From contig NC_052488.1 in NCBI RefSeq assembly GCF_009730915.1, positions 22,667,868 through 22,731,867 of the forward strand: DNA of 64,000 nt. Reading direction: 5' to 3'. Shown piece after piece: positions 5,387 to 62,901 of this stretch (the stretch's first letter is position 1; each line of letters opens with the position of its first letter). Origin of the DNA: Dioscorea cayenensis subsp. rotundata. Taxonomy: Eukaryota; Streptophyta; Magnoliopsida; Dioscoreales; Dioscoreaceae. The translations under genes were made by a program, and so were the position numbers. The notes beneath the pieces were generated by a model, which was not told where the DNA came from, did no database searches, and saw only the letters and a program-made list of their open reading frames with translations.

Positions 5387-8300
5387 TCATTCAGCAGACA
5401 CATTACCATATTGCCATGGATTGAACGCGATGGAGTTAATATCGACCTCCTCTATGACATCCTGAGCTATCAACTACTGCCCTATGCTCAGTGTACTTAC
5501 CATTATACTCATATACCTCCAGGTCACCCCATGGTGTTGGAGTAATCTCCCCAGATAAGTCGAACCATCTCGGAGTAAACTTGTGCCCATTGGCCTCTCG
5601 GTTTCTTTTTTCGGCCCTCTGCTGTTCCTCCAGTCTGAAATATCAGCATCACAGGGAAAATGTGAATAACATAAATAATAACAGATTATAATGCAGATTC
5701 TCAATCAGCCTTCGTTATTTCAAAATGTTTTTACATGGAATTTAAAATTGAAGATATGATGGCTTAAAATTTTGATTCTACCTGCTTTTTTCTGCACCAG
5801 ACTTGGACATGTCACCTTTTTCAAGAGCATATCTATCAGGCCGCAGTCGTGAATCGGATGCCAATAGCTTCTTGGGTGCTGTCTCGAAGCTGTTTAGCTT
5901 GTGAGCAAAATGTGTGTACTGGTATTTATCGTTCGCCGGTGTAGCTGCAACTTTCCATATCTAGCAAAAAAAAAAAAAATTCAAGAATCCAGGGAAAAAC
6001 GCAGCTATGGTCAGTGACCATAATTACTCAGCTACAGTATCTATAAACTGAACACGTAGAAAAGAAGTAAACAAAAGATCACTGTGACAGTTCTTACGTT
6101 TCCCCTGTGCTCAAGATTCTAATAGTGAAAGCAAATCAAAGGAAGTCTTAAGACAATCTGTACTATAAAAGTTATTTTTTCTAAGTAAAGGAGTTCTAAT
6201 AAATATAATTTTATCCATGCCCTATAAAGATAGAAAATAAAACCAGAGATTCTCAAACTTTACCTCTTTCAATTCTGTGCCAGGAAGAGGTTCTCCTTCC
6301 AGATCACAAGGTTGGCAACTCATTGACTCATTCCATTTGCCAGTCATCAATAATTTTGGTTCCTCTGATGCATTATATACATAGCCATCAACTTCATATC
6401 GACCAGCCCTGTAATCCAATAAAGCTTCCTATAAATCAGGATAAAGAAGCAACACAAATACTGATCAACCAATATAATAAATACAAATATCATCTGAATG
6501 TTCAAAACATTTCAAAGGAATCCAAACTAAAGCATTCGTGGGTCTGACAATACCCTGCTTTTGTTGCATGCTACAAGAGCAAATCTACCACATAACAGCA
6601 CTAAAAAAGGACCAAGAAACAAGAGTATAAGATATACATGACTGGAAATTGAAAATCACAAATACATGGGATTTGCTAATAATTGGTTGATTTTACCCTT
6701 TACATTTTACAAGCACCTCCAATAGCACAATAAGAGAAAAAAATATATATGTGAAACCATACAAAAACACATAACAAGAAAATAATTATCATACCCAAAC
6801 CAGCCACATGGTTGAAAATATAGCACGGCCTTGTCTCCGGTGGTCAAATTTGTCATAATCATCTCCCCAGGTGAATCAACCCATGTGCGACCAAAAATAA
6901 GGTTGTTAACCTTTGTAGGAGGGGGGACAAGATCGAAGACTACACCAGCCTTCTTAAGGGTCACCCTTGTTCTGCAACATCGCAAATACAATTTAAACAA
7001 GTCTATGATTTTGTCAGATATTCCTTATGAACATCATTCTAAACTGACAAATTATATACTACAGAAGACAGAACTGGGTAATAAAAGACAAATATGTAAT
7101 ATTGACACCTTTCCTAATTAAAAACTCACCTTCCAACAGGATATACTTCTACTGAATTTCCAAGAAACTTTGTCTTCAATTTAGAAGTGATGTCATAAGT
7201 GAAATGCTCATTCTCAGCATGCCCTGCACTCATCGGAGGATGATGACTAATCTGAAATACAAATAATAATAATAAGCTATTGTTGCGCTATTATGGTAAA
7301 CCTTGTAACGCAATTTCTCAAATACCAAAACAAGATGAGAATACAATTACAGCTAATTCAATACCAATTTACCAAAGGAAACTGGTTGTTCTACAAATTG
7401 CATAAAAACAATATTAATTTCACATGATCACAAAAGAAAGCAAAAGCGAGAGAGGCTATGAAACTTACCTGTTCTGAAATGAACGTGATACCATTATGAT
7501 TGACCATTTCATAAGTTTCTCCAAGGATTGGATTGAAAGGCTTCCACGTCCGCTGATAGGCGAAATACACAGAAATTGCCCATGAAGCTGCAAGCATCAA
7601 GAGTAGAAATCACATTATGGATTTATGCACATAGAAAGAAGAAGTGGTAACAAAATAAGATAAACTTACAAACATAGGCCACACGCATGTAAGGATCCTC
7701 ACATTCATCTGCTAAATCTAACAAATGAGTATATTCCAATATCTGCATCACAGTTGCAGACTGTATTAGATTTTGCAAAGAACTGCTGAAAAGACCATCT
7801 CCAAATGAATGGTAGTATCAGATAGCATGTGGATACTTTAGTATCAATTTAAGCATAGGAGAGTGGAACATGGAAGTTACTGAATGCAGAAAGATAATAC
7901 AAAAATACAAGTTATAATCATAGAAAAACTGCCAATCTATCTGTTTAATATATTGCAGAAGGAAAGGGAGGCCCATCTGACTTCAAATTCCCCAAAGCCC
8001 CAGAAAAATTCCATAACATCCTCATATCATGTCAGCAGAACATTTAACCAATCATTTACTTGCAAGGAGTCAACGTCGTTTGACAGAAACAAAGCCCAAA
8101 ACAAACTCTTTGCAAAACAGCCAATGGCTTTCAGTGAGGCCCTAAATCCTAATTCCTAAACACTAACAGTATCAAAACCTGAAAACCTATTACTCAACTC
8201 AAGTATCTGTTAAGGTAATCCGCAACCCAAGTCATATCATGCCTCCATTGAATTGCTTGAAAACCATATAGTACTTTTCAATACAGCAGCAGTTTACCAG

Positions 8301-10208
8301 ATAAAGCCCTTATGAGCATAGGAAAAAAATTAATGATCCCACACAAAGGGAATTTTCACAGTGCCTGTGGGTAGAAGAATCACAAACCTCTGCCATTCTC
8401 TGAAGCATGGTCATTGGTTCAAATATGATAACCGGAAGTGTCACCAATGACGTAACATCTGCTCCTATGTATTTGTGCATCATTTTCCAATAACCATCAC
8501 GGTCCTGCATAAAATGAAAAAGAATTTACACAGAAGACAGAACTTCAGCTAATGAAATTTAATTGCATGGTATATGATATAAAGGTTAAATTATGATGCT
8601 CATAGAGCGCAATGACGATAGCAGATTGGCATGTATTAATTATTAAAGCACCTCCGAAAATAGTATCAAGTAAAGAGTGTCAAGATTCACAATTCATGAG
8701 GAAAATATGAAGAAATAAAACAGCTAAATTAGATTTAAATATTTTGTCCCCAATATTTGTTCAAGAAAACATAAGGTGGAAAAGAAAGAACTACCTCCTG
8801 TTTCCACCTCCCCCTTTGGGCTTCTGCTTCAGCATCTTCAGTGCTTCCTTCAGGGTTTATCACTTCGAGTCCTTCATAACCCATTAAACTGAAAGAAGCA
8901 AATTAACTTTGCCTCAATAACAATATAAGTGTAAAACAAAGTAAAACTACTTTCCATCATATAAGATGGAGCCATTGTACAAAAATCTTACAGATAATTT
9001 ATGGTGTATAAAAAGAGTGCAGATAATCATCAAGAGATGGTCTTCTCATTACCAAAGAAGGCGGGATAGAGTAAATCGCAGAATTTCAAAATACTAACGT
9101 TAAAAAAAAAAAAAAAAACATTTGAGTATTCAAAACTATGTACTTAAATATGATCAAATGGAGGAACATATGTAACAACCAGAAATTACAAGGAGAATCT
9201 GAAGAGGAATTAATGATGAAGTATTGTGTTAATTTTGTGAAACCGTTATTAACAAACCAAATATCTAGTGTTGTTTTCAGTAAGCCAGTGGCTTCTCAGT
9301 AACACGATAAAAATTCATAATAACCTGTAGACATTTATCTGACTTTCTAAGGAAACAAACTATCATAAAATCAACCATTAAATTAGTTCCCGCATATGGC
9401 TCCAATAGAATATGGTTTGACACCAAATTACAAGATACAACTTTAGATTCAAAGCATTTCAGATTAAGGTGCTGCCCACACAATTGGCTGGTCAATGAAA
9501 AATAATTGTGCCCTAGATACTGGATTCACTATACTATCGAGGTGGTATAGCAAAAATTCAAACTGGATGAAAAAAAAAAATTCACCTGGGTCCTAGGAAG
9601 TAATGGCAAAATTTGCGTAAAAGACCCAAAACATATAACAGAAACTGACCATGGTAAAAATCCTGATTTTCAAACTTTATTAAAAAAAACTATGAAACTT
9701 TAAAATTAACATTGCTATAAGAAAAACATCTCCAGCTGTTGACATCGAAGGCTCCAAAAACATCAACAGATGTAAGACCAACTATGTCGCGCGGAGAACA
9801 ACAGGCGGACCTTACTATCTTATAAGCAGGGGAATCGCCATAAAAGATTCATCAAAGCTACTCAAATCAATAATACAATCCTAAAAACCATAATGAACAA
9901 CTCGTTTCAAATAAATTCCGCCCGATGTTCTCAATAATCAGAGTCAATAAGGATTCAACCACAAATCAGTGAGAATCCCCAAATCCAACCTCAATTACTA
10001 GAAATATGACAAAACAAAACATCAAACGAAACCTCACCATGCCAAAACACAAGTCATACATTAAGGAAATCATATAATCCAATCGATCTACAACGGATCC
10101 ATACCCATTAACCGATTTCTGCATGGCGGAACCCCAGCTCCTGACGCTGGACGAGATCGCCGCGAAGAACCCACCACCTTCAGTGGGCTTCTCATCCCCT
10201 GAACGCAT
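5387..10208 (-). CDS. ORP3A: Oxysterol-binding protein-related protein, ORP3 type
   Basis: Ten exons on the minus strand: 10208-10105, 8888-8795, 8504-8388, 7742-7670, 7587-7469, 7251-7130, 6971-6795, 6408-6264, 5960-5782 and 5634 to the stop. Phases match throughout. Expected product is about 458 residues, usual for the short plant ORPs that lack a PH domain. Seen: [17 protein letters not shown], the lipid-binding lid region; the OSBP signature as [18 protein letters not shown] (exon 6); and the C-terminal FTPRWFDL and FNPWQYGN. Known: such proteins bind sterols or PI4P and work at ER contact sites; Arabidopsis ORP3a is ER-associated. The start is the ATG at 10208 because it begins a glycine-rich head like that of relatives. 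Oddity: the last exon shifts by one base at 5461-5462, so the frame as given ends at 5436 (442 aa), whereas the conserved tail runs on to 5387. Confidence 0.93.
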
Positions 10209-12664: not shown

Positions 12665-15600
12665 ATGAAAAAGAGTAAATCGAGTAAAAACGCCCATGTC
12701 CATCAGCAGAATGGCCATGCTCTTCCCTTCAAGTTCGCCAAGTTGCTCGATCCTGAGGCTTCTTGGGACAAGGTCTTCATCTTATTGATCTTCAGGCCGC
12801 CTTTTTGATGCTTCGTTGTTTTAATTGCTTCTTGATCTAGTGGTTTTGCGCGTCGATCTTATTGTTTTCGTTCTTCGTAGCTTCACGTTTTGGATTATCA
12901 ATGTCTTTGTAGTAAGCGTGTGCTTGTTTGCTTTGTTTTAGGATCAATTGGGAGATGTGCTGCATTGGATCCGGCAAGTAGCAGGACTTGTTTGTGGTTT
13001 GCTATGGGGCGCGGTTCCTCTCATTGGTGCGAAATGGATCGTCCTGTAAGTCGGCATTATCATGATTTGATGTTTTCATTTTTTTTTGGTGGCAATGGTA
13101 ACATATATTCTGATACATAGTTTGCAATTAACCGAGGGGAAAAAAATTATCCCTTTATTGATCTCTGTGGTTCCAAAAATTTTGAGTGTTCATGACACTA
13201 TGAGAATCAGAATGTCAATTTTGTTTCTTTAACTGTAGTGTTTTTGTATTTATTATAAGTAGACACAAAATAAGTTTGGTGATTTTGTACCATTGTCTGT
13301 TTATTTGAGTGAGGAGTTGTTTAAGAATGGGATTAGCTTTGAGGAATTACTGGTATTTGGTTATCACATAATAGGTCTTTAAATATATTCATTACGGCTG
13401 ACTTCTGATATAAAATCGCAATATCAATTTAAAGTAATTCTCGTGGGAATTGAGGTTAGAGTTTCTAAACATCCCAAGCACTGCCATTAGAAGCTACTGG
13501 CTTCTTATGCTAGTTATAATTTACATATGAATTACACTCCTGTGAATGAAGACGTTTTGCTTTCAATCAGTGTGGTACCTTCATACCAGCCTTTATGATG
13601 AGAAGTCTGAGATGTGTGGGATGTTTTAGTAATTTTATGCTCCTGAAAGGAACATGTTTTCTTGAAGAAAAGAGGGAAGCAACAATGGTCTCATTCTAAT
13701 TGAAGTGGTTTATCCATCTTTTCAATAATAATAAAAAAAACAATGGTCTCATTCATCTTCTATTATACCAAATATTAGAGCAACTGAATTGCTTCTGTGA
13801 ATGAAGATGATCGGGTCAAGAGTATGCTTCATGTTGGATTTGAATAGAAATAGGGTTTATGCATAATTTGTTATGTAAGACGATGCTGAGGGTGCTTCTT
13901 TTGATTTTCCTTAATTTAAGTCTTCAGGCATTCCATCCATGCAAAAGCCTTACAATGGCTTAGATGATACAGTACAGATTATTGTCATTTTCTATCATAC
14001 CATGTAGCTGTGAAAGACCATCCCTGATGATGTTATGTTACCTCTTTTAGGTATTTACTTAGGGGTGGCAATTTTTGACACGACACGTTTACATGACACG
14101 ACACGGTCTTAGGAGGGTTTGGGTTTGGGTTAAACGGGTTAGTGTCATAAACGGGTCGACCCGTTTATGACACGCCTAAATTAAGCGGGTTCGTGTCATA
14201 AACGGGTTGACACGTATATGACACGGTTAACCCGTTTAATATGAATAGGTAAATGTGTCTGATAGTAAACTTGATAAATTAATTGAATTATTCTCACGGC
14301 AAATATGATGTTTAAGTATTTTATGTTTAATGTTAGTTTGGATTTTTAAAAAAATGTTTTGATTAAAAATTCGTGTCGCGTGTCGTGTCGTGTGGCGTGT
14401 TAAACGTGTCGTGTTTTAAACAGATAAACATGTCGTATTGACCTATTTAAGACTTAAACGTGTTAAACGTGTCGTGTCGTGTCGCCACGGGTTTTAGACG
14501 TATCGTGTTTGTATTCTAAAAAATTACCCGTTTAATAATCGTGTCGTGTTCGTGTCAGGGTTAAACGTGTCAGATTCACAGGTCAACCCGACACGAACAC
14601 GACCCGCTAACCCGTTTTGCCACCCCTATATTTACTGCCAATGTATTTCTTTTTAGCTTAAGGGGTGCTGGGACTTCTTTAATCTTGAAATATGGGCCTT
14701 TTTGTACTCTGTTGTCATGTAAACCTTGCTGCTTCCTGCTTACCTAGATAAAGCGTTGAAGAATTCGGTCCTCTTCCTGTCTTAGAGTGAAGAGTTTACA
14801 ACTTCTAGCTTGATGTTCATATTTTATTTAGGTTGTACTGTCTCAGTTCTTACATTCTGGATAACAATAATGTAATAGGCGCCTCCTTCCTATGTATAGC
14901 TATCTCAGCTTGCACAAATTTCAGTTGAACTGGTTCTCCTAATGATACGCTGTTATTAACCCCAGGCAGTAGCTATTTTAGGATAATTTTTTGTCAGTAA
15001 CCCATGATGCTTTCACATGAACATCCCCTGGGTTATTTTCATCGATTTTGGTTCCATTTCCATGTTAAGGCAAATGCTATGTCTCCCTAGGTCAGGTTCT
15101 TTATGCTGTCTATAGATGTTTCTGCCAAGTGACTCTTTTTGTGCATTCTTCCATTGAAGTGGTGCTCTTTGATTGTTTATTGTTTAGTATTTCTAAGCAA
15201 ATAACTTGGTATGTCTGACAAATAATTAATCCCCTATACTTGCATTGATCTTGTAAGTGTAATTTCCTGAACTAAAGACTGGCTTGGTATTGATAATTGC
15301 TGACATGTGATGGTACAATGCATGCGAACTAAAAAGGACTCAGTTTGCCTTAATTCTTCCTAGCTGCCAAGTTTCTACTATCATAATTTCTCAAAGCTAT
15401 CATGCTGTCATCAGATACCTGGTGTTGTCTTCATCCATTGTCTATGGATACTATGCGCACATTCTTAAAATTGATGAAGAAGAATTTGGTGGCCATGGAG
15501 CACTACTTCAAGAGGGACTCTTTGCATCATTTACGCTGTTCTTGGTAATATCCCTTGTTCTCATCTTTCATCCACGGTCTATGTTCTGACCCCCCTGATG

Positions 15601-15712
15601 CATCTTTTACACCATCTCATTTTAGAGACAACTTTTTAAATAGGGTCAACTTTCTGTTCTTGTTTGACTGCAGCTAGCTTGGATTCTGGTATACAGCTTG
15701 GCACATTTCTGA
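12665..15712 (+). CDS. RAB5IF: RAB5IF / Rab5-interacting (EMC6-like) small membrane protein
   Basis: Four exons: 12665-12772, 12942-13045, 15415-15544 and 15674-15712. All phases agree and give 126 residues. A polar, lysine-rich head (MKKSKSSKNAHV) is followed by DQLGDVLHWIRQVAGLVCG, a first hydrophobic hairpin, then a second membrane segment with VYGYYAHILKIDEEEFG, and a last helix ending LAWILVYSLAHF. The W.RQ motif, the IDEEE(F/Y)GG turn and the closing AH are shared with animal RAB5IF (C20orf24). Known: in animals RAB5IF is the obligate partner (OPTI) of the TMCO1 insertase in the ER GEL complex, and it also has a mitochondrial respirasome role. Plant members are annotated only as Rab5-interacting family; an ER insertase role here is inference. 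The long intron 2 hosts two transposon insertions. Confidence 0.88.
13697..13740 (+). mobile_element. Short 5'-truncated retroposon tail with target duplication
   Basis: A roughly 44-bp insert beginning TAATTGAAGTGGTTTATCC and ending in AATAATAATAAAAAA is flanked by the same 14-16 bases (CAATGGTCTCATTC, 13683-13696 and 13741-13754). Its TTGAAGTGG(T/A)TTA core matches the 3' tail of the LINE remnant near 12330-12350. That is the signature of target-primed insertion of a severely 5'-truncated LINE or LINE-tailed SINE. Confidence 0.75.
14060..14628. mobile_element. hAT-type MITE in intron 2 of the RAB5IF-like gene
   Basis: The element is 569 bp long. Both ends carry the terminal inverted repeat TAGGGGTGGCAA, and it is flanked by a perfect 8-bp duplication TATTTACT (14052-14059 and 14629-14636). 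Eight-base duplications and this TIR are hallmarks of the hAT superfamily. Inside, many copies of ACACGACACG and CGTGTCGTGT in both orientations, plus the palindrome AACGGGTCGACCCGTTT, give a strongly self-complementary interior. No transposase frame is present, so it is non-autonomous. The intact TIRs and duplication suggest a fairly recent insertion, tolerated because it sits deep in a 2.4-kb intron. Confidence 0.92.
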
Positions 15713-20730: not shown

Positions 20731-20799
20731 GATTTCCTTAGAATTTTTCACAGAGCTTTGTTGAGCTAATGGTCATGGGGAACGGGGATAAGAGGAAGC

Positions 20800-22855
20800 A
20801 TGCCGAGCTTCAAGCACGACGAGCTTGACTTCTCGTTCGATCAGTCCAGCATGAACAACGGATTCAGTCTCAGAGATGAAGCTCAGAGCTTGTTAAATTC
20901 CAGCTCTTTGGATGACAAGCTTTCCGGCAGGGAGTCGCCGGACCGGTACCCGGACGTCTTCAACGACATAGTACTCAACTACATCAACAGGATGCTGATG
21001 GAGGAGGACATGGATGAGAAGCTGGACATATATCATGAGCCATCAGCGCTGCAAGCTGCTGAGAAATCTCTCTATGATGTGCTCGGTGAGAAGTACCCAC
21101 CGTCGCCGGACCAGCCACCTTTGTACACGGATTCAGAGAGTCCTGGTACTGATAACTCTGGTAATCCTTATAGTAGTAGTCATAGCTCGTTCCAGTCCTC
21201 CTCCTCCTCCTCCTTCAGCTCTTCGAATAGCTTCAGTAATGTCACTCAGGGGTTGGAGGAGTCGTTGCTGAACATGGGATGGGTGCCTGATATCTCCATG
21301 GATAGTTTTAGAAAGGGTGTTGAAGAAGCACGCAAGTTCCTCCCTAGTGATGATCAGTTGGTCATCACTCTTGAGAATAGTACTGGCTTTGTTTCATCTT
21401 CTTCTTCTTCTTCGTCACCTCCTTCTGTGAATCAGGTTAAAGCAGAGGAAAAATATGGGTCTAGAGGAAGGAAGAACCCTCACAGTGATGATTCAGACCC
21501 TGAAGATCAAAGAAGCAACAAGCAATCCGCTGTTTTTTATGAAGAAGAGACTGTCCGCACGCCCATGTTCGATGATGTCCTGCTCTGCAAGTTCAACTGC
21601 GTGGCACAAACGCAAGCTCTGCGCGCGGCGGTCGAGCGAGAGGCGAGCAAAGGTGTCGTGCAAGATGAGAAACAGAGCAAGAAGACACGAGGAAAGAAGC
21701 AGACGAAGAAGGAGGTGGTGGACTTGAGAACTCTTCTCATTCACTGTGCTCAGGCTGTGTCTGCTGATGACCGGAGAAACGCTGGTGAGTTATTGAAGCA
21801 AATCCGGCAGCACTCGTCGCCTCACGGTGACGGCACGCAGAGACTTGCGCATTGTTTTGCTAATGGTCTTGAAGCTCGCATGGCCGGAACTGGCAGCAAG
21901 ATCTACAACAACTTCATGTCTCAAAGAAGGTCTGCTTCTGATGTTCTTAGAGCTTACCAACTTTATCTTTCTGCTTGTCCATTTAAGAGAATCAGTCATT
22001 TCATGGCCAACCGAACTATCTTGGATTTGGCTGAGAATCAACAAAGGCTTCACATTGTTGATTTTGGTATTTACTATGGATTCCAGTGGCCGTGCTTCAT
22101 GCAAACATTGGCAAACCGGCCTGGAGGTCCACCCAAGCTTCGCATCACCGGCATTGAACTTCCTCGGCCGGGCTTCCGCCCGGCCGAGTTAGTGGAAGAA
22201 ACAGGGCATCGCTTGACTGACTATGCCCGGAGTTTCAAACATTCCCTTTGAGTACAACCACATCGCGGCCAAGTGGGAGACAATCAGGTTAGAAGATATA
22301 AAGATAGAGAAAGATGAGCTGCTCGTCGTTAACTGTTTGTATCGTATGAAGAGTCTCGCCGATGAGACGGTGGCTGCTGATAGTCCAAGAGACATGGTCC
22401 TCAACCTGATAAGAAGAATGAATCCTGATTTATTCATCCAAGCAATCACCAATGGCACTTACAATGCTCCATTCTTTGTGACACGGTTCAGAGAAGCTCT
22501 GTTTCACTTCTCTGCATTGTTTGACATGCTGGAAAACAATGTGCCTAGGGAGGACACACAGAGGTTTCTGATTGAAAGAGATCTCTTTGGACGTGATGCT
22601 CTTAATGTCATAGCTTGTGAAGGGTTGGAAAGAGTGGAGAGGCCGGAGACTTACAAACAGTGGCAGGCCAGGAACCTTAGAGCAGGATTTGAGCAGCTCC
22701 CTCTCAAACCCGAGTTGGTAAGGCATGCAGTGAGCAAGGTGAGGACTGTTTATCATAAAGATTTCATCATCGATGAAGATAGTAAATGGTTGCTCCAAGG
22801 CTGGAAGGGACGTATCACCTATGCAATCTCCATGTGGAAGCCTCAATCCTATTAA
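20800..22855 (+). CDS. GRAS transcription regulator, LISCL (SCL9/14/33) type
   Basis: Intronless, about 684 residues. The head has the LISCL marks MLMEEDMDEK, ALQAAEKSLYDVLGEKYPPS and long serine tracts. The GRAS domain starts at VDLRTLLIHCAQAVSADDRR (leucine heptad I), has VHIID as LHIVDFGIYYGFQWP, then LPRPGFRPAE, an R(V)ERPETY / QWQARNLRAGFEQLPL block (PFYRE region), and ends with a SAW motif, WLLQGWKGR..Y..S.WKP. Known: LISCL proteins are nuclear co-activators; SCL14 works with class II TGA factors in detoxification. Oddity: the frame breaks at the AAA of 22237-22239 (total length 3n+1), so 20800-22251 and 22223-22855 read as two halves of one conserved protein. Two upstream ATGs (20769, 20775) open an overlapping short frame, MVMGNGDKRK; relatives often begin MVMD, so the true start may lie there with another one-base shift. 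Confidence 0.92.
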
Positions 22856-24272: not shown

Positions 24273-26048
24273 ATGACTTTGTCTCTTCCCCCAGCACTGA
24301 TATTTCTCATTAGAGCTTCTCTGTTTACATCAATGGCTCTGTTCCTCTTCATGAATACAACACATGCTCCAGAGACAACAAGGCATTACACATTCAACGT
24401 AAGTTTTATCGACCGATGTTTACATGCATTAATTGGCTACATGACAATGAGTTTAATACTGTACGTACATGTTTTGTTCTCATGAGCAGGTAACAATGGC
24501 GAATGTGACACGTTTATGCCACACAAAAAGCATTGCAACTGTGAATGGCCAAATTAATTTCCAGGGCCTAAGATTGTTACTAGAGAAGGTGATAGGGTTG
24601 TGGTAAATGTTATCAACAATGTTAAAACCAATATCAGCATCCACTGGTATGAACTTAATTAATGATAATTAATGACTAATTAAGTAAAGTATTTTTTCCA
24701 CTTTTTAAGAAACAATCCACTGTGCATGTGTATATCATTAGTGAGATGCATGCAGGCATGGAATAAGACAGCTTCGTAGTGGATGGGCTGATGGTCCTGC
24801 TTATATTACTCAATGCCCCATTGAAACTGGCCAAAGCTACACATACAACTTCACCATTAAAGGACAAAGAGGCACTCTCTGGTGGCATGCCCACATCTCA
24901 TGGCTGAGGTCCACTGTGTATGGTCCCATCATCATACTGCCAAAACAAGGAGTTCCTTATCCTTTTCCCAGGATATACATATATGAGTTTTGTACGTACT
25001 ACTGATGAAGATTTATATGCATAAACTCAAATTAGTTACGGTTTCATTTGAGATGCAGGTGAGTGGTGGAATGTGGACACAGAGGCAGTTATCAGCCAAG
25101 CTTTACAGACTGGTGGAGGCCCCAACGTCTCTGATGCATATACTATCAATGGACTCCCTGGTCCATTATACAACTGCTCCTCCAACTCCAAAGGTACGTA
25201 ATTATTTAAGTAATGAATGAATGCATGCATGCAGTATTGTTAATTTCTGAGAAAGTACTGTGAATTTGAAACAGATATATTCAAGCTGAAGGTGAAACCA
25301 GGGAAGACTTATCTTCTCCGTATAATCAACGCTGCACTCAATGATGAACTGTTTTTCAGCATAGCAAACCACAGCCTCACAATTGTTGACGTTATGCATG
25401 GAGCCATTTGATACTAAAACACTCACAATAACTCCAGGCCAGACTGACAGGCACTTTCTTCTTCACTGTGGGGTTAGGCTCAACCCCTAGAGAACCAGAC
25501 ATGCCAGGGTCCAAATGGAACAAAGTTCACTGCAACAATGAACAATGTGTCATTCTCCATGCCAGCCACTGCTCTCCTCCAATCCCACTTCTCCGGTCAG
25601 TCAAAAGGTGTTTACTCACCGGACTTTCCGATCATCCCACTCATGCCATTCAATTTCACTGGTTCTCCTCCTAACAACACCTTAGTCAGTAATGGAACCA
25701 AAGTAGTGGTGCTGCCTTATGCCATTGGCACTAGTGTGCAGCTAATAGTGGAGAGGAACACTGTTGGTGCGCCAGCAGGTGGTTGGGTGTCCATTCGGTT
25801 CTTAGCTGATAACCCTGGTCAGTTACTGTTAATTAATTAATTACGTTGACTTGAATGCTTTTAAGAAAGTCAACGTAGACTTGATAAACATTGACTTTGA
25901 TAATTTATTAAAAACAGGAGTGTGGTTCATGCATTGCCACCTCGAGGTGCACACGAGCTGGGGTCTGAAGATGGCGTGGGTGGCGTTGGATGGGAGCATG
26001 CCTGACCAAAAGTTGCCTCCGCCGCCACATGATCTCCCCAAGTGCTAG
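24273..26048 (+). pseudogene. Laccase (multicopper oxidase) pseudogene
   Basis: Recognisable laccase pieces appear in order: a signal-peptide-like start (MTLSLPPALIFLIRASLF), HW plus [19 protein letters not shown] (copper motif I), [15 protein letters not shown] (motif II), [68 protein letters not shown], and [14 protein letters not shown] with the end HDLPKC. Introns sit at usual laccase positions (exon 1 ends at 24398). Known: laccases oxidise monolignols in the cell wall using four coppers. Here the motif with HPxHxHG is absent: the text passes from [12 protein letters not shown] straight to the VERNTVG block. About 100 residues between TITPGQT and FFFTVGL are also missing, a five-base insertion follows the VNGQ block, and other frame shifts occur. 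With ligands lost it cannot make a working trinuclear centre, so this is a decayed copy, not just a sequencing artefact. Confidence 0.88.
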
Positions 26049-36252: not shown

Positions 36253-41547
<5,295 letters not shown>

Positions 41548-42119: not shown

Positions 42120-45100
42120 TCAGAGATCATACTTGATGTGGTACCCCCTCAGCCAGTCCTCCCCCTTCTCATAGTAGTCTTCCCTGCTAAAAGTCTGAGA
42201 AGAGAATTGTGAGGCAGATGCGTAGGCTGATGCACCCCGCCAAGCATCTAAAATGGGGTCTGAGGCTCGCACTACTCTGATGGGAGAAAGATAAGGTCGG
42301 ATTTTTCGTACCCCAGCTTCAAGACGGGGGACCAGACCGGGGAAGAGCAAGCTCCCGCCAGTGACAAGGATTGAATTGCTGATGCTTTCCTTCATGGCAT
42401 CATCGACACCATAGAGCCTCCGGAATAAGACCCCAACCATTTCGTCAAGGCCAGCTTGATCAACTCCAACCATGGGGGGCTGGAATAATATCTCGGGGCA
42501 CCGGAATCTCTCAACACCTAGAACAATCTGGAAGTCTTCTGCAGTTTGTGGGGTGATGCGTGCAGGCTGTGAGATGTTTGTGGGCTGGAGAGGTCCGATA
42601 TATGTTGGGTCTATGTCCTGTATAGATGCCAATAGACATTGACAAGTGAATCAACCCTTGATGGAAGAATCAGACAAACAGGAGATATACAAATTAATAG
42701 CTATTGAACTAAAAGTTTTTCCACAAATGAGAACATGAAATAAAGATGGCGATTGTAAATGGCAACCACAAATGAAGATTCAAGAAAAAGAAAATCAGAG
42801 ACCATTTCGTAGAAGGTATATATCTGATGATGCATACCCATAGGTTTCCTCATCAACAAGAAAAATTGCTGGTAAGAAGTCAAAAAAGGAACTAATTAAT
42901 AAACTGACCTGGAGTCTAGATGTAACACGAGCTAGTTCTGCCTCATCCTCCTCATCCTCCTCATCATCATTGTCTCTGCTCATCAGTTTGTAGAGTTGCC
43001 AGTCCTCATCTCTAGCTCCGAAAGTATCCTCACCCTTTCCCCTATCAAACGCAGCTGTGGTAAGGAGGCGCATCCTTTCCCTTTGAGCTGCATTAAGTCT
43101 CTCACCACGGCCACCAGCTCCGTTCAAATTCTGACTGCCATTTGTTTTGCTACCATTTGTCTTCAGTCGCTTTCGCTGCTCAATTCTCTCACTGAGTTCT
43201 TTGTGTTTAGCACGTAGAGATTCAAGATACAGCTCCGGGTTTTCACTGAACACAGGCAAATACCAAATGATGAAATAACCATAACATATTATGATAGAGA
43301 AAAGACCGGGGTTGCTAGAAGGAAAAATCATGAAATTTCATAAAACAATCATAATAAACTTCAGCACTGAGAAATAATAAAAGTAGCAAAACTACACATA
43401 GAAAATGGGTTAGGGAATCACATGTGCCAAGCCAAAAGATTTACTCTCTGAATCAAATGCTGTTAACAGCAACTATTCAAATATTCATTTTGCCAATATG
43501 AACAAGTAACTTACCAGCGTTTTTCTTCATCTTGATGAATTTGTTTCTCCTTCTGTGTTTCTTCGTCAGCACGCTTTTGTTTAGCCCGTGACCTACCTTC
43601 AGACATGGTCTTTATAAATGTTTGTCGCCTTTTCTCTTTTAACTGCCAAACAAATGTTTAAGATATTATGCAGTGAAGGGCATATACTTAAGTATGATGT
43701 GCACAGTAGAAAATCACTCAAACAAATGCACCAACAGCTGCACTTTCAATGCAACAAGGTCGCCCTATCATCAAGGATAAAGAATCCTACCACAACAATA
43801 AATGTTTATAAGTGTATAACACAGCCAGGAACATCGGGCACTATCACACCAATGACATAAATGTAATTTATAAAATAAACATGAATAGGAGTATACCTGT
43901 TCTGGAGTCAGCTTTTCATCAGGGATCCCAATCAAAGGAAATTTCTCAGCTGACAAAACATCAACCCTCTCCTCACTATCACTAGGCTCACCTCTTGCTT
44001 TGCGTAAAGATTGTGAAACTTTCTGAAGAGCGGATTCAATTTCTAGCCTGGATGAATATACTGTGTTGGACAGGAATGATGAAATTTCATGTTCATCCAT
44101 TTCATCAAGCTCCTGCACTAAGTCTTCCAAACCACGTAGTTCATTTTCCAGCTCCATTATCCGTACAGATCTTTTAGCTGCAGCCATGTCTCGAAGACGT
44201 TGCCCTTGTTTTTCTTTCAAAGCTGCCTTTCTAGCCAGTTCTTCTTCTGTTGGAGATTCTTCTTGTGGAGGAGGAACCCATGGTAGCTGCCAACACCTGG
44301 TTTTCTCTTCAGCTTCCTTTGTTTTTTTCTACAAGGGCTTCCATCTTCTCAGAAAACCAAACCTACCATTTGTACAAAGAGCAGAAAATGAAACACAAAG
44401 AAAAACAAACTTCTACCTGAAATAATTCCAATTCAGACAAATAATCTTCAGCAACATAACAATGCTCCATCTTCATATCCTCAGCCTTCTCCCAGGTGAT
44501 GCTAGACCTGCAAATTTGCAGCATATCAAGAGTTTGAGAAATCATCACAAGACACAAACCCAATTAGAGAAATACTTCATGCACAATGCATGTACATGTG
44601 CTGAGGATATTTAAGTGAAAGAAGCTGCTTCAGATAGTCAGTGACATGATATCCACCAATGTTTGTTCTGCAACATGCATCCAGGACAGGTTCTCCCCTT
44701 ATAAACTGGAATCCAAAAAAACAACATCATCAACAATAAAAGAAGCGATTTTTGAATGCCATACAAGTGCTATCACATGAGAAATCCAAAAACTAACAAG
44801 TTAAGCTACTTAGATATCCCCGTGGTGAAGTAAAACCAAAGCATTAAGTGCATTTAAATACCTTGCAGAGATTGGAATAAAAAATGCATTGTACCAAAAG
44901 TAGGATCAATAGACAAAATTACTGCATTGCGGTCATCATTTAATCCTTTTATTAGAAAGCCATTAAATTAAATGTGATAATTCTTTGAGTGTTCAATTAA
45001 TTTTGTCAACGAGATATATTTGGTCAATCATCACCCACACCACATATTAGACCAGCAACCAATTAATTAACCTGGCTAAAAACCTACTGGAAACACATGG

Positions 45101-47229
45101 CTTGTTGTCAGCCCTGAACAAACAACAAGACCATCTTCATCACAAATCCCAAGCTGCTGATTGAACTTGTAGCTGAATGCCGCATCAACACCAAAAGCTG
45201 CAAACCATGCTTCATAAATTAAATAGAATATTTGGCTTAAAAATAAAAATGGGCATAATTTAGTTTTCAACATAAATGAAAGAATGTAACAAGGAAATGG
45301 TAAAATGAGGAAGTCAAACCATGATATGCAATGCGTAACAATTGAAGATATATACCTATGGAACGGACACCATATGTCTCAAAAAGTAGTTCGGCCATTT
45401 TACTTCGAGAACTGACTGGGTTGCATGGACATTCAGTCATCAGTATGGGATGGTCCACCTGTTTGGCCCAGTTGGCATCAAAACAGCATGGTAAACTTAG
45501 AAATGTTTACAAATTACAAATAAGAATGATCTGAAATAATTATATAAGTGAAAATTCAAAGAAATAACAACTACCAAAATATGAAACTCGATTTGCAACA
45601 AGTTAGTTTTAGCAATATAGGCAGTTACAGGACCACCAACAGTGAGGTAATTCTAAGCTGTGCGAAGCCAAAGAACTATGCCTCCATAAGATCTGGTATG
45701 TGTAGTATACCTTACTGTCCTACCTGCACTGGTTAAGTACCTCCTAGCTAGTAAGTGAAACCTAAAACAATTGACCTAGACAAATGCAATCCATAAAATT
45801 GTATTTACATAATATATTGCTCTCAACTGGCCATTATGGTTCACAGAGATGTTCTTCAATAGATTGAATGATGACACACAATAAATAACGATATATTTAC
45901 CAATATGTAAGGTTTGCAATAATGAGAAAAAGATAAAATTCAAACACAATAAACCTAGCATGAAATGAAGCCAAATTGCAATAACTCATGTTTGCAATGT
46001 CAACAGAATCACAGATAGACATCTGATGAAACCAGTGAACTAACACTCCACACAGGATGGTATGACTGCACTGGCTGTGTTCCCTGCTGCTAACAAGTGC
46101 GGTTCACAGAATTGTATTACATAATATATCACCTTCAACTGGTCATTGTAGTTTATAATAATTGTCCATGTCTATAAGTTCAAAATAGCAATATAACAGT
46201 TACACATAACATGTCTAAATGGATGAGGAACAAACAAGTTATAACGGCAGCAGGAAGATGACAACAGTGCTGTTAAAATCCGAAAAAAATCAGGATACAT
46301 AAGCGTATAATACTAAATGCCATACTTTACCCACCAAATTCTTTTAATGTAGAAAAATAATTGACAAGACATTTACCTGAATTCCTTGAGCACCTAGTCG
46401 CTCAAAACCATAATCAAGGACCTAAAACAATACAGAAGGAAGTCACGCGGAAGATACAACATTTTTGTAAAAAACAATAGGCACACTCTTTTAAAAAACA
46501 AATTCCAATTTTTAAAAAAAAAAAACTCACATATTCCATGATCTCAAATTGATAGACAACATTGCTATCAAAGGGTGAGCGGGAAGATGACCGTGTGCAA
46601 TCAAAATATTTAATCAACGCTGGATCATGATCACCAACAATGGTGGTGGTTTCACCTATAGATCAAAATACTGTAAGAATAGGCAGCTAAATTAAATCAG
46701 GAAACCAAGGTCTATGGTAGAAATAGATTGTTGTCATTATCATTTGGTTATCGAAGTAACATCACATTTGGTTATCCATAATAAAACGAAAACCAAATGT
46801 TTTGCGGAACAAATACAGTAATTCCCAGATGAATAAGCACCAAAAATGAATAAAGGATTACAATTTAAGCGAAGCAGCATCACAGCTCCAGATTAACATA
46901 AAACACAAAATTATATATCAACATTAGATGAAGGATAGAAGGCTATAAAGAAAAGAGGAATGCATCACCAGTGGCCCTATGCCGTGGCCTCTGGACGGTG
47001 TTGCGGAAAATGACACGGGGATCCGACTCCCCAGCCCATCTGACAAGCATCACAGGTATATGAGACGAAGTTGTTGACATGGAATGATCGCAGAAGGAAT
47101 AAGGGTAAAAGTGAGGGTTAGGGTTTACCCTATGCGAAAATGGGAGCCACCATTGTCGATGACGATGGGGGTGGTGGAGGAGAAACGATTGTAGTCGGAT
47201 TGGCGCACTGGTCGATCGATCGAAAGCAT
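42120..47229 (-). CDS. ARP5: Actin-related protein 5 (INO80 chromatin remodelling complex)
   Basis: About twelve exons. The first ones are 47229-47129, 47039-46969, 46655-46531, 46421-46377, 45458-45356 and 45197-45088. Later ones lie near 44707-44590, 44516-44423, 44327-43898, 43640-43515, 43247-42910 and 42614-42120. Seen: TTPIVIDNGGSHFRIG (actin phosphate-1 fold), FRNTVQRPRHRATG, KYFDCTRSSSRSPFDSN, DHPILMTECPCNPVSSRSK, AFGVDAAFSYKFNQ, RTNIGGYHVTDYLKQLL, a long charged ARP5-specific insert (ELARKAALKEKQGQRLRDM; RMRLLTTAAFDRGKGEDTFG), then GVERFRCPEILFQP, SILVTGGSLLFPGL and DAWRGASAYASASQF, ending KGEDWLRGYHIKYDL. Known: ARP5 is a nuclear subunit of INO80, needed for nucleosome sliding and DNA repair. 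No frame break was found. Intron 4 carries a diverged duplication. Confidence 0.95.
45798..46152. repeat. Diverged duplication in an ARP5 intron
   Basis: Segments at about 45798-45841 and 46110-46152 share TTGTATT, ACATAATATAT, TCAACTGG and CATT.T.GTT in the same order and orientation. Weaker similarity (GACTGCACTGG versus CCTGCACTGG) extends to the left. It looks like an old tandem duplication of roughly 310 bp. Confidence 0.6.
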
Positions 47230-49968: not shown

Positions 49969-50187
49969 ATGGCGAGCGACGCGGAGATCGGCGAGATGGA
50001 GGGCTGGGAAACGCCGAAGAGAGGAGAGTGCCGGATTCCGGCCGTGATCTCTTGTCCACCACCACCGAAGAAGAAGTCTCCGGCGTTCACGAAGAGGAGA
50101 GATCCGCCGAAGAATGGCTACTTCCACCCACCTGATCTCGAGGCGCTTTTCGCCCTAGCGCCACGCCAGAGAGAGGCTTGCGCTTGA
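49969..50187 (+). CDS. SMR: SIAMESE-related cyclin-dependent kinase inhibitor
   Basis: A single exon of 72 residues, [18 protein letters not shown] onward. It shows the three family motifs in order: a phosphosite-like [13 protein letters not shown], the proline/lysine [12 protein letters not shown] block, and [10 protein letters not shown], the cyclin/CDK-contact motif, then [11 protein letters not shown]. Known: SIM/SMR proteins bind CDKA or CDKB complexes in the nucleus, block mitosis and favour endoreduplication, often in response to stress. The length is at the short end of the family but complete, since both ends match. A TATA box and paired G-boxes lie upstream. I cannot tell which SMR number it corresponds to. 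Confidence 0.9.
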
Positions 50188-51211: not shown

Positions 51212-52395
51212 TTAAAGCATTAGCATAGAGAAATATTGCTCAAATTCTTGATCAATTGTTGGCTTCCTTCCCTTCAATCTAGCATCTGTTGAAAAAAAAA
51301 GAACCCCAGTTAATTAGTACAAGCAAATGAATAAGTGGCATAAATAACAAGGCCTACCTTGCCCAACCATCCACATTCCAGGGAAAGACAAGGATTCATT
51401 TGTTGTAGTAACACCATTGGAATACAACAAGACATTATCATATCCTTCATTCTTAAAATGCTCCAATTCCTGTTGTTGGTCATCAATATCAATAGATTTT
51501 GCACTAGAACTATCAAAATCAGCCATCTCATCTACTTTTTCTTTTGGAGTGAATCTGCTGTCCAGGGAGAACAGGGTGTCCCTGAAATTATTGTTATCAT
51601 AACTGCCCAATGAGGTTGGAGAATGTTGGTTCACTTGATTAGTTTTCAATGGAGATTGTTGGATGATTTTATCATCATCATCATCATCCAGTATCATTAC
51701 TGAACCATACTCATCAACAATGATGCTATCACCATCTTTGGCAGACTCTTCATTTTGTTCGGATTTATTGGCAATGATTATGTTATTAGGCCCTTCATCA
51801 ACCTTAAAATTTTGTTCAACTGAAGATCCTTGACCTGAATGGCTGGATCTAGCTCCAAACTTGTGCTTGGGGCTTGGCAACTCCAAGTCATATAAACACT
51901 TCCTTTTCTTCTTCTTCAATTCAAGAATGCCAGTAGTAACATCTTCAATTGGATAGAAGCTAAAACAGGATGTAAAAAGAATACCTGATTAGCATGGTTG
52001 TCAAATCTTTTAAGAGTATACTAGTGAACTCTCTAACTAAACTCAATAAAGCCAGGAGTTATTCTTCCTCTCTTGATTGGTAATCAATTGACTGAACCAA
52101 CATCCTTTATACTATATGTTCAAGGGTTTTGTTTTCCACATAAAAGAAAAAAGAAAAATAAAAAAATTTCTCAATCTCTTTTGATCCTTTGTTTGTCTAT
52201 AAAATCAATCAGTTATAGAAAGCTGATAAAGCTAAGTGAAAGCTTAAGAAAAACCGAGAACAAAATAGGATCTAAATCTACAAGCAAAGCATGAGAAAAA
52301 CAAAGAACTACAAGAGTGAACAGAAATTGGGATGCCAAAGCTGCAAATGATGAATAAAATTGAAACCTCTGGATGACAACGCTGCTCTTCTCCAT
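51212..52395 (-). CDS. FHY1: FHY1/FHL phytochrome A nuclear-import factor
   Basis: Three exons: 52395-52367, 51959-51358 and 51285-51212, exactly 234 residues. The N-terminal part holds the nuclear signal and its companion motif as KKKKRKCLYDLELPSPKHKF. The middle is acidic and poorly conserved, with an aspartate run (DDDDDD). The C-terminus is the diagnostic block: FPGMWMVGQ, then PTIDQEFEQYFSMLML, which is the phyA-binding septin-related tail. Known: FHY1 and FHL bind light-activated phytochrome A in the cytosol and carry it into the nucleus for far-red responses. The short third exon supplies the essential tail; without it the protein would be lost to view. Everything is in frame and no defect was seen. 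Confidence 0.93.
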
Positions 52396-52855: not shown

Positions 52856-54166
52856 TTACAGGGCTACACCAAGTTTTTGGCTAGCCAGGGCACACTGGAC
52901 CGGCGCGAACCCGACCCGACTGTTCTCGAGATCGTACTCGACCCAAACGTTTTGCTGATGGTGGTGCCCGATCACGTATGCCTCGAGTGGGACTAAGTCT
53001 GAGTTCCCGAACGTGAAGCACCAGACCGCGTCCAGGCCCCGCTTTTCACCAGCCACGAGGTACAAGAGACGGTCACCGGTGACGCTCATCTCGGCACCGC
53101 GAAACATGAGAACCACAGCTGGGAGCCTCGGGATTTGTGTTTGCTCCGGGATACGGAAACAAAGATCGAAGGCACCTTGGAAGACGAAATCTGGTTCGTT
53201 GAGGACGGTGAGGATACCGCGGGTTTGGTTTAGGAACTCGGTTCGTAGAGCGGAATAAGCCGGGCCGAGGAGGAAGGTGAAGCGGGAGCCGGAGTCGACC
53301 ATGGTTTGGCCGGCGCCGGTGTGGTCCGGAACGAGGACGGATTTGGGGATCGGGAGAAGCTTGGATCCCACTTTGATGCCTTCGAGCTGAACGGAATATG
53401 CCACCCGGTCAAAGTAAGGGAGAGGGAGTGACATCTCGATGAGTGGGGTGTAGTTCATGGCGACGGAGAAAGGAAGACTCGCCGGACCGAGGAGGAGAAC
53501 GCCGGTGGAGTCATGGTCGGAGATGCAGTAGGAAAAGCGCCGGGTGTTGGTTTGGGTGACGAATGACAGCGCCCACGGTTCATGCCTAGGAGGCCGGCGG
53601 TGAGTGAGTCTTCGCCGGAGGAAGAGTACGTGGAATCCATGCAGCCAAAAACAGTAGTCAAAGAAGGGGAGTCACCGAGACGGAAGTGGTCGGATGAGAG
53701 TGTGCCTTCCGACGAGGAAGCGTCGGCGTAAGTGAGTGACACGTGGCAATTGGAGGAAGAGTCGCAAGTGCCCGGAACGGGGAGGTCGCGAGTGCCGGAG
53801 GTGCAGACAGTGGAGGAACAGGGGATGCGGGAGTAGGACGATGATGAAAGAGGGTGGAATGAAGAGGAGTTGGAGCAGAGGAGCCATGAGAGCTCGCTGC
53901 CGGTGTCAAGGACCATGGAGACGTTCTGAGGAGGAGTGCCGACGGAGAGTGTGACGGTGAGGCTGACGTTGTGGTGGAAAAGGAGCTTGTTTGATGTCCT
54001 ATCAGCTGGCAAAGATGCCAGCTTTTTGGTTCTCAGAGGCAAAACCAAGGTAGTGTCAGACTTTGTCTCTTTTCTCCTCATCATCACTGTCCTTGTCCTT
54101 GTTGAAAAGCATAAGTTTAGTTGTAACAACAACAAGAGTAGTAGAAGAAGAAGAGAAGAGGAGCAT
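52856..54166 (-). CDS. PCS1: Aspartic protease, PCS1 (PROMOTION OF CELL SURVIVAL 1) type
   Basis: Intronless, about 436 residues. After a leucine-rich signal peptide come DRTSNKLLFHHNVSLTVTLS, VGTPPQNVSMVLDTGSELSW (first catalytic Asp), YADASSSEGTL, FGCMDSTYSSSGEDS, TAGLLGMNRG, then NYTPLIEMSLPLPYFDRVAY, PIPKSVLVPDHTGAGQTMVD with DSGSRFTFLLG (second Asp), and GHHHQQNVWVEYDLENSRVG. This is the order seen in Arabidopsis PCS1, an ER-retained or secretory A1 protease that restrains cell death in embryos and gametophytes. Oddity: the frame shifts at the CCC of 53572-53574 (plus strand), where relatives need one more G after MNRG. The only upstream ATG (54164-54166) is one base out of frame with the signal peptide, which suggests a second shift. 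Confidence 0.9.
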
Positions 54167-56835: not shown

Positions 56836-59402
56836 TCAGTTTGCCTTACTAAGAATTTGCTTGATTGAGGAGTATGATCCAATGCATGAGCATGCCACTC
56901 CAACCAAAATAATCCAAACACATAAAGATACCTGGAGAGAGAATAACCATATTTCACTGCATTATTAATGTCTATAACCAATGATAATAATACATGAATT
57001 TATTACCTGGAGATAATTTGTAGATCTCCGCTGGATGCTAAGGTAGCAAGCACATGGTAAAATAAGAGCCTGCCACAGCATTCAAAGGAAATGCAGTGAA
57101 TTTATGGTGAACTTAAAAGCATTAAATTTTTACCACAAATTTGATACTTACCACAAGCATTGTGAAGATCGATCCAAGCAATGCCATCACAAAGCCTGAA
57201 AAACACGGTATCCATAATATGAAGTGTCGACGTTGCAGATAATATTTGCAATTGTTCTATTTAAATTTAACATGCTGACTCACCAAAATATGGAACCTTA
57301 AGTGCAACAATTAATGTTGAGAGAACTAGAAGTGTTCTGATCACTAACACAACCGGGCGAGATTGATGATTTGAAGGTAAGATTTCCTCTAGACTTAGTG
57401 CTACTGGAGTCATTGTAAGAGCATACTTTGAGAGTGGGTTCACAACCTGAAGAACAATGAGCTTGCTTGCTGAATGTTTAAGGTTGATATGAAATCAGGA
57501 GTCTCGATAATCAGTTGATCATACCGTAGTCCCAATTGCGAGTTTAGAAGCAACAAATTCAGGAGGCAAATTCAGTGTAAACTGAGATTTTGTGAATTCA
57601 CCAAACATCATATACCCTAGAACAGCTACACCGGAGTAAACAATTGTACATATCAAAAAGCTGCATCAAAACAATCCTTACTTAAAACCAGTGATACGAG
57701 ATTGTATCCGATAGTACTTGAAGGTTTAACTAGTATGAAACGGTTACCAGTAAAACATTACAGAGGGAAACTCTGATGGTGTTCTCATTGATGAATAAAT
57801 GTTGGGGAAAACCGAATGTCCTGAAAAACAAAAACCATACAAACCAAGAGCAACTGGCAAGTTGGCAAGATCCAATGGGGTACCACCTGGGTGAAATCCA
57901 ACTTTATCGACGGTACCCACCCAAAGCAAGCACAACACAGCTATCACGGACGCAGTCACACCTCCAGCTGAAATTTTGATCTTCATGACATGAATATTGT
58001 GGTGTCTTAAACTTGGTTTGTAAAAATTTTCAATGTGAAATCAAGCATACTTTAGTTTAACAATCACCATTACCTGATAGGTATGACAGCAAGCTAAGGT
58101 CTCGAAGCCAAACAGTTGGAAGAACCAGAAATGCAGTAGTTATGGCAAAGAGCTGCTGGGAGTTGAGAACAAATCCTAGATAGTTTAGATGAGCATTTGG
58201 AAACATTGATGACAAGCTATCACCAACTAAGATTATGTACTCTACACAACATGCCTGCAGAAATAAAATGCCAGCCAGCATTAAAACACAATCCAAAATA
58301 CTAGCTTCGTCATAGAAACAAGAGTCCACTCACATAAAGCTCCAAATAGAGGATCACCTGAAGCAAATAAAAAAATATATATATATATGTAAGAATTCGT
58401 TCAATCAAAATTCAATGGAAGAAAACAAAGACTAAGAGACTTCACTGAGATGCATAAACGCCCAGTCCTCCCAAACGCAGCCTGGCCGATATCGGGATAT
58501 GTTTGGAGTTCTGGAGAGCTATCCAAGCATCTCTTCAATAAAATCCCAGTGTAGAATGAGATAGAACCAAAACCAAGCAACAACAGCATACCCAACCACC
58601 CTCCTTCTTTCACTGCATAGGGTGTGGTAAGCAACCCCACACCACACAGAACATTAAGCCCTGCATCCAAACACACACACATTATCAGTTATCACCATAA
58701 CAACTCATGCACAAGAAAAAAGTATTTATATCTGATACCATTTACTATAGCTTGAGCTGTAGAACACTCTGGAGATGGAGGGAGTTCCTTGAAGGAAGGC
58801 TTCCGAACTACAGCATTGTCGATAGGGGTTCGACAATCTGGAGGAGCAGGAAGATAGTGTTGATCAGGGTAAGGGATTTGAGGCCGAATAAGAGGTTTAT
58901 CAAGGGAAGCTTCATCAGTTCTGGCAAAGGGGCTTCCGACCAAGCTTGAACCACCTCTAAATACACTCCCTGGCCTTGCAAAGGAGTTGCTAAGCCAGCT
59001 TGATCCACCTCTCAATACACTCCCAACCAAATTAGGAGATTGCACGCTCACGCTCACATTGCTCATCATATCAATGGATTGTCTGAGAATCTCTCAACAG
59101 AATACAAAGTTGTGATCTTTTTCACATTTATGTTTCTCAAATCCAAGAAAAACTATAACTTTGATGGAATTAGAGACAATGTACCTGTAACTTTGGGGCC
59201 AAATAAAGGTACTGGATTCATGGTCTCCATCGTCGGAGGGTTCGCAGAGGCGAGGAGACGAAGTGGTGGTGGTGGTGGAGAAGGCGGAGGAGGAAGAGGA
59301 GGGGGAGTAGTCGGTGTTGTCTTGCCGAGCTTGGTTCTCTTCGTCGTCGGTCTCGAGCTCGACGCCGCCGCGGTCGAGGCCCATCTCTTCGTCTGTTTTC
59401 AT
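56836..59402 (-). CDS. AVT1: AVT1-type vacuolar amino acid transporter
   Basis: About nine or ten exons. The first begins at the ATG at 59402 (MKTDEEMGLD), the second at 59082, and the last carries the stop at 56836. The head is long and acidic/serine-rich with repeated FRGGSS / SPFA-type motifs, as in AVT1 proteins. Eleven membrane segments are expected; seen are LNVLCGVGLLTTPYAVKEGG (the substrate-pocket helix 1), LGFGSISFYTGILLKRCL, CCVEYIILVGDSLSSMFP, TTAFLVLPTVWLRDLSLLSY, VALGLYGFCFSGHSVFPNIY, TIVYSGVAVLGYMMFG, NPLSKYALTMTPVALSLEE and VACSCIGSYSSIKQI. Known: AVT1 transporters of the AAAP family move amino acids across the tonoplast. The frame stays open across all recognised exons. Expected length is roughly 550 residues. 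Confidence 0.92.
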
Positions 59403-61304: not shown

Positions 61305-61307
<3 letters not shown>

Positions 61308-61763: not shown

Positions 61764-62901
61764 CTACCATCTTGCCATCTCGTCTTCATCTGGCCAATTG
61801 CTCCTATGCCTTCTTGAGAGCACAAGAGGGCCACTTCTATTTGTTCGAGAAGATGAATCTCTGCGCTCTGAATTCGATCTCGAAGATGAACCAATTCTTC
61901 GGAAAAAGGAGAAGAAATTGCGCAAAGCTCTGCCTATGCGTCCACTCTCCCTTGACCGGCTCCCTCTGGAGGTCCATAAGACCCTCCGTGGAGCTCCTCC
62001 CTGTGTTGAAACCACCATCCATCTCAGTATACACCACTGGAAGCTCCCTCTCCCCTGCTCTTCGTCCACCTGAGAACCTCCCCACAGCGAAGCCACCGCC
62101 GGGGAGCCTCCATATCGTGAGCCCCACAGCCTCCTCCTGCTCCTCGACTTCCGACTCCATCCGCCGCCCAACCTCAGTGGGCATCTCGTGCCGGCAAACA
62201 GGACAAGAGTTACGGAGCGAAAGCCATGGCAAAATGCAATCTTGGTGGTAGATGTGCTTGCAGGGCATCTCGCGAGCCTCCGACCCGAGCTCAAAAGCTT
62301 CCTTGCAGACAGCGCAGTGGGAATCAGTGCCGATGTGACCAGCGGCGATCTCGATGGTAGGCATCGACTCAATGGATGCCTTCGATGCCGGCGGATGAAC
62401 ACAATCCCTCCCCCCAGCCCCAACGCCGTTGACCTCGATCTGAGACAGCTGCTCCAGCAGCCGATCAAACCCAGACCCCATCAAGAAATCCGACATACTT
62501 GCAGGAATGGGGCGGAGGCCAGACCCAGCGCCGTCATCGTAATAAAGCTCGAAACTGCTAGACGGAGTCCGGTCATGCTCGATCCCACGTTCCGGAGTTC
62601 CACGGAGGACAATAACAGGGTTGAAAGGAGATCGATCCCCGCTGGTGGCGGTGCGGCGAGTACGACGAGGCGGTGGGGTGTCAGCCGAGGCGTTATCGAG
62701 AAGGTACATAGGCGGATGCGTGAGCCGTCGGCGGCGTCGGCTCTCCGCTGGAATTCGGGGAGGCGTGCCGACTTCCTCCAGGAATCCACCATCACAATCA
62801 GGGCAGACGATGGCGTCGTTAGGCAACACCCTAACGAATCTGCTACATCGGTAGCACCAGTACGACGCCGCCAGCGACGACGACGACGAAAACAAAGACA
62901 T
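61764..62901 (-). CDS. RDUF: RING-H2 / DUF1117 E3 ubiquitin ligase (RDUF type)
   Basis: Intronless, about 378 residues. The start is taken at the ATG at 62901 (MSLFSSSSSLAASYWCYRC), which puts the N-terminal zinc ribbon (SYWCYRCSRF, then CPDCDGGFLEE) where relatives have it; upstream codons are open but lack an ATG. The middle contains MSDFLMGSGFDRLLEQLSQ. The RING-H2 domain is CAVCKEAFELG, then MPCKHIYHQDCILPWL and NSCPVCRHEMP. The C-terminal DUF1117 follows: RELPVVYTEMDGGFN and GSRSRESGRIGRALRNFF. Known: RDUF1/2 and AtRZF1 act in ABA and drought responses. Oddity: a one-base shift at about 61996-62010 separates the two DUF1117 parts (total length is 3n+1), so the frame as given ends at 61837 with a nonsense tail. 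Confidence 0.92.

Follow-up and report, generated by a model that had tools for sequence, protein, structure and literature searches.

Genes of the window and their frame changes

The analysed window is a 64,000-bp stretch of the Dioscorea cayenensis subsp. rotundata assembly (C18:22667868-22731867, within a genome of 584,211,761 bases in 2249 contigs). Eight single-base frame changes were distinguished in six of its plant genes (Table 1), which encode: (i) an oxysterol-binding-related protein (ORP), (ii) a GRAS protein, (iii) a HAD protein, (iv) an FtsH protease, carrying three of the eight changes, (v) a PCS1-like aspartic protease and (vi) a RING-DUF1117 protein (RDUF). The names PCS1, RDUF, ARP5, AVT1, RAB5IF, SMR and TRFL, used here and below, were assigned by sequence likeness and are presumptive. 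As had been originally predicted, each of the six genes exits the sequence of its conserved family and re-enters it in another frame, and all eight sites were recovered with the help of profiles, exon phases and paralogues.

Table 1. Genes, frame changes and control features of the window (positions counted from its first nucleotide).
Feature	Position	Strand	Basis
ORP (oxysterol-binding-related) gene, 10 exons	5387..10208	-	Pfam Oxysterol_BP 2-367 of 368; exon borders and phases
ORP frame change, last exon, +1 base vs C9 paralogue	5455..5470	-	exon reading and C9 paralogue
RAB5IF-like control gene, 4 exons, 381 bases, unshifted	12665..15712	+	
GRAS gene, single exon	20800..22855	+	Pfam GRAS in two frames
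GRAS frame change, +1 base	22231..22245	+	profile 1-173, then 173-374 in next frame; frameshift-aware alignment
Laccase pseudogene, large domain losses (contrast)	24273..26048	+	profile matches
HAD / pyrimidine 5'-nucleotidase-like gene, 7 exons	29968..31537	-	profile matches and exon phases
HAD frame change in 283-base exon, +1 base, single-base position not resolvable	30685..30712	-	TIGR01993 1-136, then 123-183; C7 paralogue single-frame
FtsH gene (m-AAA type), 8 exons	36253..41547	-	profiles and exon phases
FtsH frame change 3, Walker A region of exon 6 (769 bases), +1 base	38855..38868	-	TIGR01241 159-203, then 203-411; C7 exon of 768 bases, single frame
FtsH frame change 2, end of exon 5 (487 bases), +1 base	39157..39168	-	exon phase; C7 exon of 483 bases, single frame
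FtsH frame change 1, exon 2 (233 bases), +1 base	41300..41320	-	exon phase; C7 paralogue open across site
ARP5-like control gene, 12 exons, 2151 bases, unshifted	42120..47229	-	
SMR-like control open frame, 72 codons, unshifted	49969..50187	+	
PCS1-like aspartic protease gene, single exon	52856..54084	-	TAXi_N 2-141 in one frame, TAXi_C 1-160 in another
PCS1 frame change, one base fewer	53566..53578	-	C7 paralogue reads through
AVT1-like transporter control gene, 11 exons, 1704 bases, unshifted	56836..59402	-	
RDUF (RING plus DUF1117) gene, single exon	61764..62901	-	profile match
RDUF frame change, +1 base	61993..62006	-	DUF1117 1-44, then 43-99; C7, C9 and C12 paralogues pass in one frame

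With the paralogues as a further reference, seven of the eight changes consist of one base too many, while the PCS1 gene has one base too few. The single-base size of the shifts in the GRAS, ORP, PCS1 and RDUF genes is based on alignment to relatives. For the FtsH and HAD genes it follows from exon lengths: the exons of 233 (exon 2), 487 and 769 bases of FtsH and that of 283 bases of HAD, all with GT-AG borders, each exceed the phases of their neighbours by exactly one base, which reproduces the earlier reading of these lengths. Misread splice sites were rejected as a source of the frame changes, because GT-AG introns flank all four affected exons and the matching exons of the FtsH paralogue on C7 are multiples of three. 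It had also been proposed that most shifts add a single base to a run of 2-4 identical bases. Of the seven sites with a base in excess, five (ORP, GRAS, FtsH exons 2 and 6, and RDUF) allow placement of this base in such a run, in a raw count over the window sites; that of FtsH exon 5 lies outside any run, and that of HAD falls within a variable loop that precludes single-base placement. When the six genes were read before and after their frame changes, no premature stop caused by substitution was met, nor were multi-base losses.

The Pfam domain of the ORP gene is already complete before the site of the frame change, so the proof there depends on the C9 paralogue, which reaches the same C-terminal motif in one frame, while the window copy needs two frames to do so. 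In the GRAS gene a possible ninth frame change is located right after the first ATG (20781-20784, forward strand); with an in-frame start downstream of it and paralogues that are not decisive, it may be nothing and was left aside. A search of solved structures with the two pieces of the PCS1 protein returned weak relatives only and was of no use for locating the site.

Besides the four unshifted controls listed in Table 1, both exons modelled for a TRFL gene are open and unshifted. The laccase copy is damaged in another manner, and shows what decay looks like in this window: its middle copper-oxidase domain is matched over positions 8-95 of 157 only, and the last one over 88-133 of 137 only. 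Two further observations concern other parts of the window. A gene-like open stretch, probably of two exons, is present at 51213-51988 (reverse strand), outside the frame-shift assessment, and about 540 bases rich in gacacgacacg-like repeats (14090-14630, distinguished by eye) lie within a long intron of the RAB5IF-like gene and may be a small mobile element.

The checked coding sequence of the window amounts to about 14.2 kb, for which eight events give a rate of 0.56 per kb (95% interval 0.24-1.11, about Q32.5). This computation includes the TRFL gene with its two exons (669 bases) and the SMR frame with 222 bases (219 with the stop, which has no visible effect), and it uses a 40% share of insertions that is an assumed value, not a measured one. 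None of the eight events fell in the unshifted genes of the window, against 2.9 expected (chance 0.03, for a split chosen after the data had been seen).

Paralogues, the partner block on C7 and selection on FtsH

For each of the six genes at least one paralogue of the same assembly crosses the site of the frame change in a single frame. Such paralogues were found on C7 for FtsH (at all three sites), HAD, PCS1 and the GRAS domain, on C9 for ORP, and on C7, C9 and C12 for RDUF. The C7 copies of RDUF, PCS1, FtsH, HAD and GRAS (loci L014, L020, L059, L067 and L070) are grouped at approximately 31.58-31.64 Mb in a partner block inverted relative to the window, as from an old whole-genome duplication. 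A duplication of this kind, which the C18/C7 pair would need, is described in PMC9010478 as old and common to the genus Dioscorea.

The two PCS1 copies are broken reciprocally. The C7 copy is open at the site where the window copy is shifted, and is itself shifted elsewhere (one base more than the window), at a place where the window copy is open. In the four ungapped blocks compared, third codon positions account for most of the differences between the two. Breaks that fall at different places in the partner blocks are better explained by scattered errors than by loss of one of the partners.

Some of the paralogues have peculiarities of their own. The C7 GRAS copy (L020, 838-868, reverse strand of the locus) has an apparent N-terminal frame change in a low-complexity stretch. 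One exon of the C7 HAD copy (L067, about 1225-1335), uninterrupted in the window, contains approximately 100 bases, including a TA-rich run, that may represent a young intron or an insertion. The C12 copy of RDUF leaves its family slightly beyond the place of the window's shift (profile 1-58 of 113; L061, around 1660-1695, reverse strand of the locus), perhaps by another frame change.

The FtsH gene, with its three shifts, was compared in detail with its C7 paralogue, whose closest solved relative is human AFG3L2. With this human protein as the reference (455 columns), the window copy has nine derived residues and the C7 copy seven; with bacterial FtsH (440 columns) the numbers are five and six, respectively. 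The window copy retains 180 of the 183 residues common to the C7, human and bacterial proteins. In this relative-rate test, applied to FtsH alone of the six genes, the protein change that would mark a pseudogene, faster than in the paralogue, was not found. At codon positions 1/2/3 the window copy differs from the C7 copy by 0/1/22 (before the exon 6 site), 18/3/91 (after it), 6/1/31 (exon 7) and 17/7/68 (the part of exon 8 that was compared), so that third positions dominate in all four pieces. Given the general ratio of indels to substitutions, three frameshifts accumulated without selection should come with many more substitutions, and the small number of changes in FtsH thus argues that this copy is not decaying despite its three shifts. 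As judged from the sequence, the window FtsH bears no sign of relaxed selection or decay.

Frame changes in GRAS and KCS genes across the assembly

To cover one family genome-wide, a GRAS profile was built from 23 intact domains of this assembly, and 44 genome loci, together with the window gene, were scanned in six frames. Two weak rows (C976 and C10:23447775) of the 63-row source listing were left out, and three fragmentary loci (L055, L056 and L058) were dropped, which gave 42 genes including that of the window. Loci L036 and L047, whose gaps look like introns, and L051, both parts of which are in one frame, were scored as unshifted. A split inside the domain was found in 11 of the 42 genes, with 13 frame changes, 11 of which are of the +1 direction; without the window gene, 10 of 41 non-fragment genes are split, with 12 shifts, 10 of them +1. 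The split genes are spread over eight megabase-size contigs and two small ones. Frame changes across six genes of the window, as the original prediction had it, are indeed present, and the extent of the problem is to be corrected to the whole assembly, given the shifts in GRAS genes on other contigs.

Frameshift-aware alignment of the 11 split genes gave 15 events (12 of +1, one of +2 and two of -2), and none in the control genes L020 and L045. An in-frame stop is present in one of the 11 (L029). The scan and the realignment agree on direction in the reading-frame sense only: shifts of L022 and L029 scored as -1 by the scan became +2 and +1, +1, -2, respectively, and a +1 shift of L049 became -2. 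Four genes (L022, L041, L049 and L052) are split within variable segments, and the size and place of their shifts are unsure.

Over about 46 kb of GRAS domains the 13 events correspond to 0.28 per kb (0.15-0.48, about Q35.5); the domain total of 45-46 kb is an approximation that takes 1.1 kb per domain. The point rate of the window is twice this value, but not significantly so: the comparison of 8 events in about 14.2 kb with 12 events in the remaining GRAS domains (about 45 kb) gives p = 0.11. Since the window had been chosen on account of its shifts, a somewhat high rate was to be expected in it.

The KCS family looks less affected than GRAS. From a reading of the table of matches alone, approximately two frame splits are present in roughly 20 KCS genes, several others of which are interrupted by introns or degenerate.

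Origin of the frame changes

Taken together, the eight frame changes are very probably single-base consensus errors, mostly one extra base, in an assembly that carries such errors throughout, and the six genes are most likely intact in the living plant. Three lines of evidence lead to this reading: the FtsH gene without relaxed selection, the reciprocal breaks of PCS1 and the mostly +1 shifts of GRAS genes elsewhere. They bear out the earlier view that consensus error is the simplest explanation. Its companion argument, that six genes are unlikely to decay at once, is weak when taken alone, as a whole duplicated block can decay. Three features expected of consensus errors were observed: the single-base size of the indels, a spread beyond one locus (10 of the 41 other GRAS genes, PCS1 of C7 and apparently GRAS of C7) and a signature of selection in affected genes, namely FtsH and PCS1, two of the six. 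Residual consensus errors would occur roughly once in every few kilobases of coding sequence, with a bias to extra bases, and would be scattered over the whole assembly rather than peculiar to this window. Reads would be expected not to support the indels.

Several points speak against consensus error: the higher, though not significantly different, point rate of the window, the lack of events in its unshifted genes, the four GRAS genes split in variable segments, the in-frame stop of L029, the less affected KCS family and the restriction of the relative-rate test to FtsH. Furthermore, losses in long runs prevail among the residual errors of long-read assemblies, whereas the sites described here are mostly one-base gains in short runs or outside runs, an unexplained bias. 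Errors of homopolymer length are given in PMC8812927 as the commonest residual errors of long-read assemblies, and in that paper and PMC12007338 small residual indels shift conserved reading frames and break genes, comparable to the frame changes of the window. A search of the main text of PMC7749330 gave no sequencing method for the D. rotundata v2 reference assembly; of the original attribution to long-read consensus error, the consensus error is supported, and its origin in long reads is presumptive.

Real pseudogenes would arise if the old duplicated block were being lost in its window copy, as can happen to one of the partners after a whole-genome duplication. The partner block on C7, with its copies of five of the genes, provides the setting for such a loss, one gene of the window, the laccase copy, is truly wrecked, and the rate test covers one gene of the six, FtsH. 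Like unitary pseudogenes, the six genes are frameshifted open frames, but unlike them they have no substitution stops in the parts read, and FtsH has no increase in rate. The FtsH counts and the reciprocal breaks of PCS1 led us to reject local decay of the block; moreover, shifts are present in the C7 block as well (in PCS1 and, apparently, in the upstream part of GRAS), and the same pattern occurs in GRAS genes elsewhere. Real decay is thus very unlikely to account for the frame changes.

The indels could also be real alleles, if a clonal, heterozygous plant carried many recessive loss-of-function indels and such alleles were taken into the assembly. A load of this sort is plausible in a vegetatively propagated yam, and a quarter of the surveyed GRAS genes being affected points to a general cause. 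It would nevertheless need three hits in the conserved FtsH gene and breaks in both PCS1 copies. Natural small indels are usually deletion-biased, whereas 7 of the 8 window events and 12 of the 15 GRAS events (the window GRAS event belonging to both sets) are of the +1 type. In addition, a DNA search with the FtsH gene, the only gene searched in this way, matched just itself and the C7 paralogue, and no second (haplotype) copy was found. We therefore regard real alleles as highly improbable, and the same holds for the form of this idea in which a share of the indels is real and represents an unusually heavy, insertion-biased, genome-wide load of frameshifted alleles, tolerated through clonal propagation and heterozygosity. 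Finally, programmed frameshifting, in which the ribosome shifts at these sites and makes whole proteins from a correct sequence, agrees with the conservation of both frames around the sites. However, inspection of the eight contexts revealed no common slippery motif, both shift directions occur, and one FtsH site lies at most 12 bases from a splice junction. A two-frame arrangement in relatives, the mark of such a mechanism, was not seen, as the paralogues keep to one frame at the corresponding sites, and this mechanism is extremely unlikely.

With consensus error as the preferred reading, the finding is most likely an artefact, not biology, and is useful to flag as such. According to PMC9010478, conserved gene families missing from the annotation number 595 in D. 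rotundata and 53 in D. alata. If the reading is true, approximately one quarter of the GRAS genes, and fewer genes in another family, appear broken in this assembly though they are intact. Gene models derived from it, as well as gene-loss counts and tests, would then mislead; harm to the gene models from such shifts is a reasonable expectation, and short reads offer an inexpensive check of every suspect gene. The biology of the six genes themselves would be ordinary.
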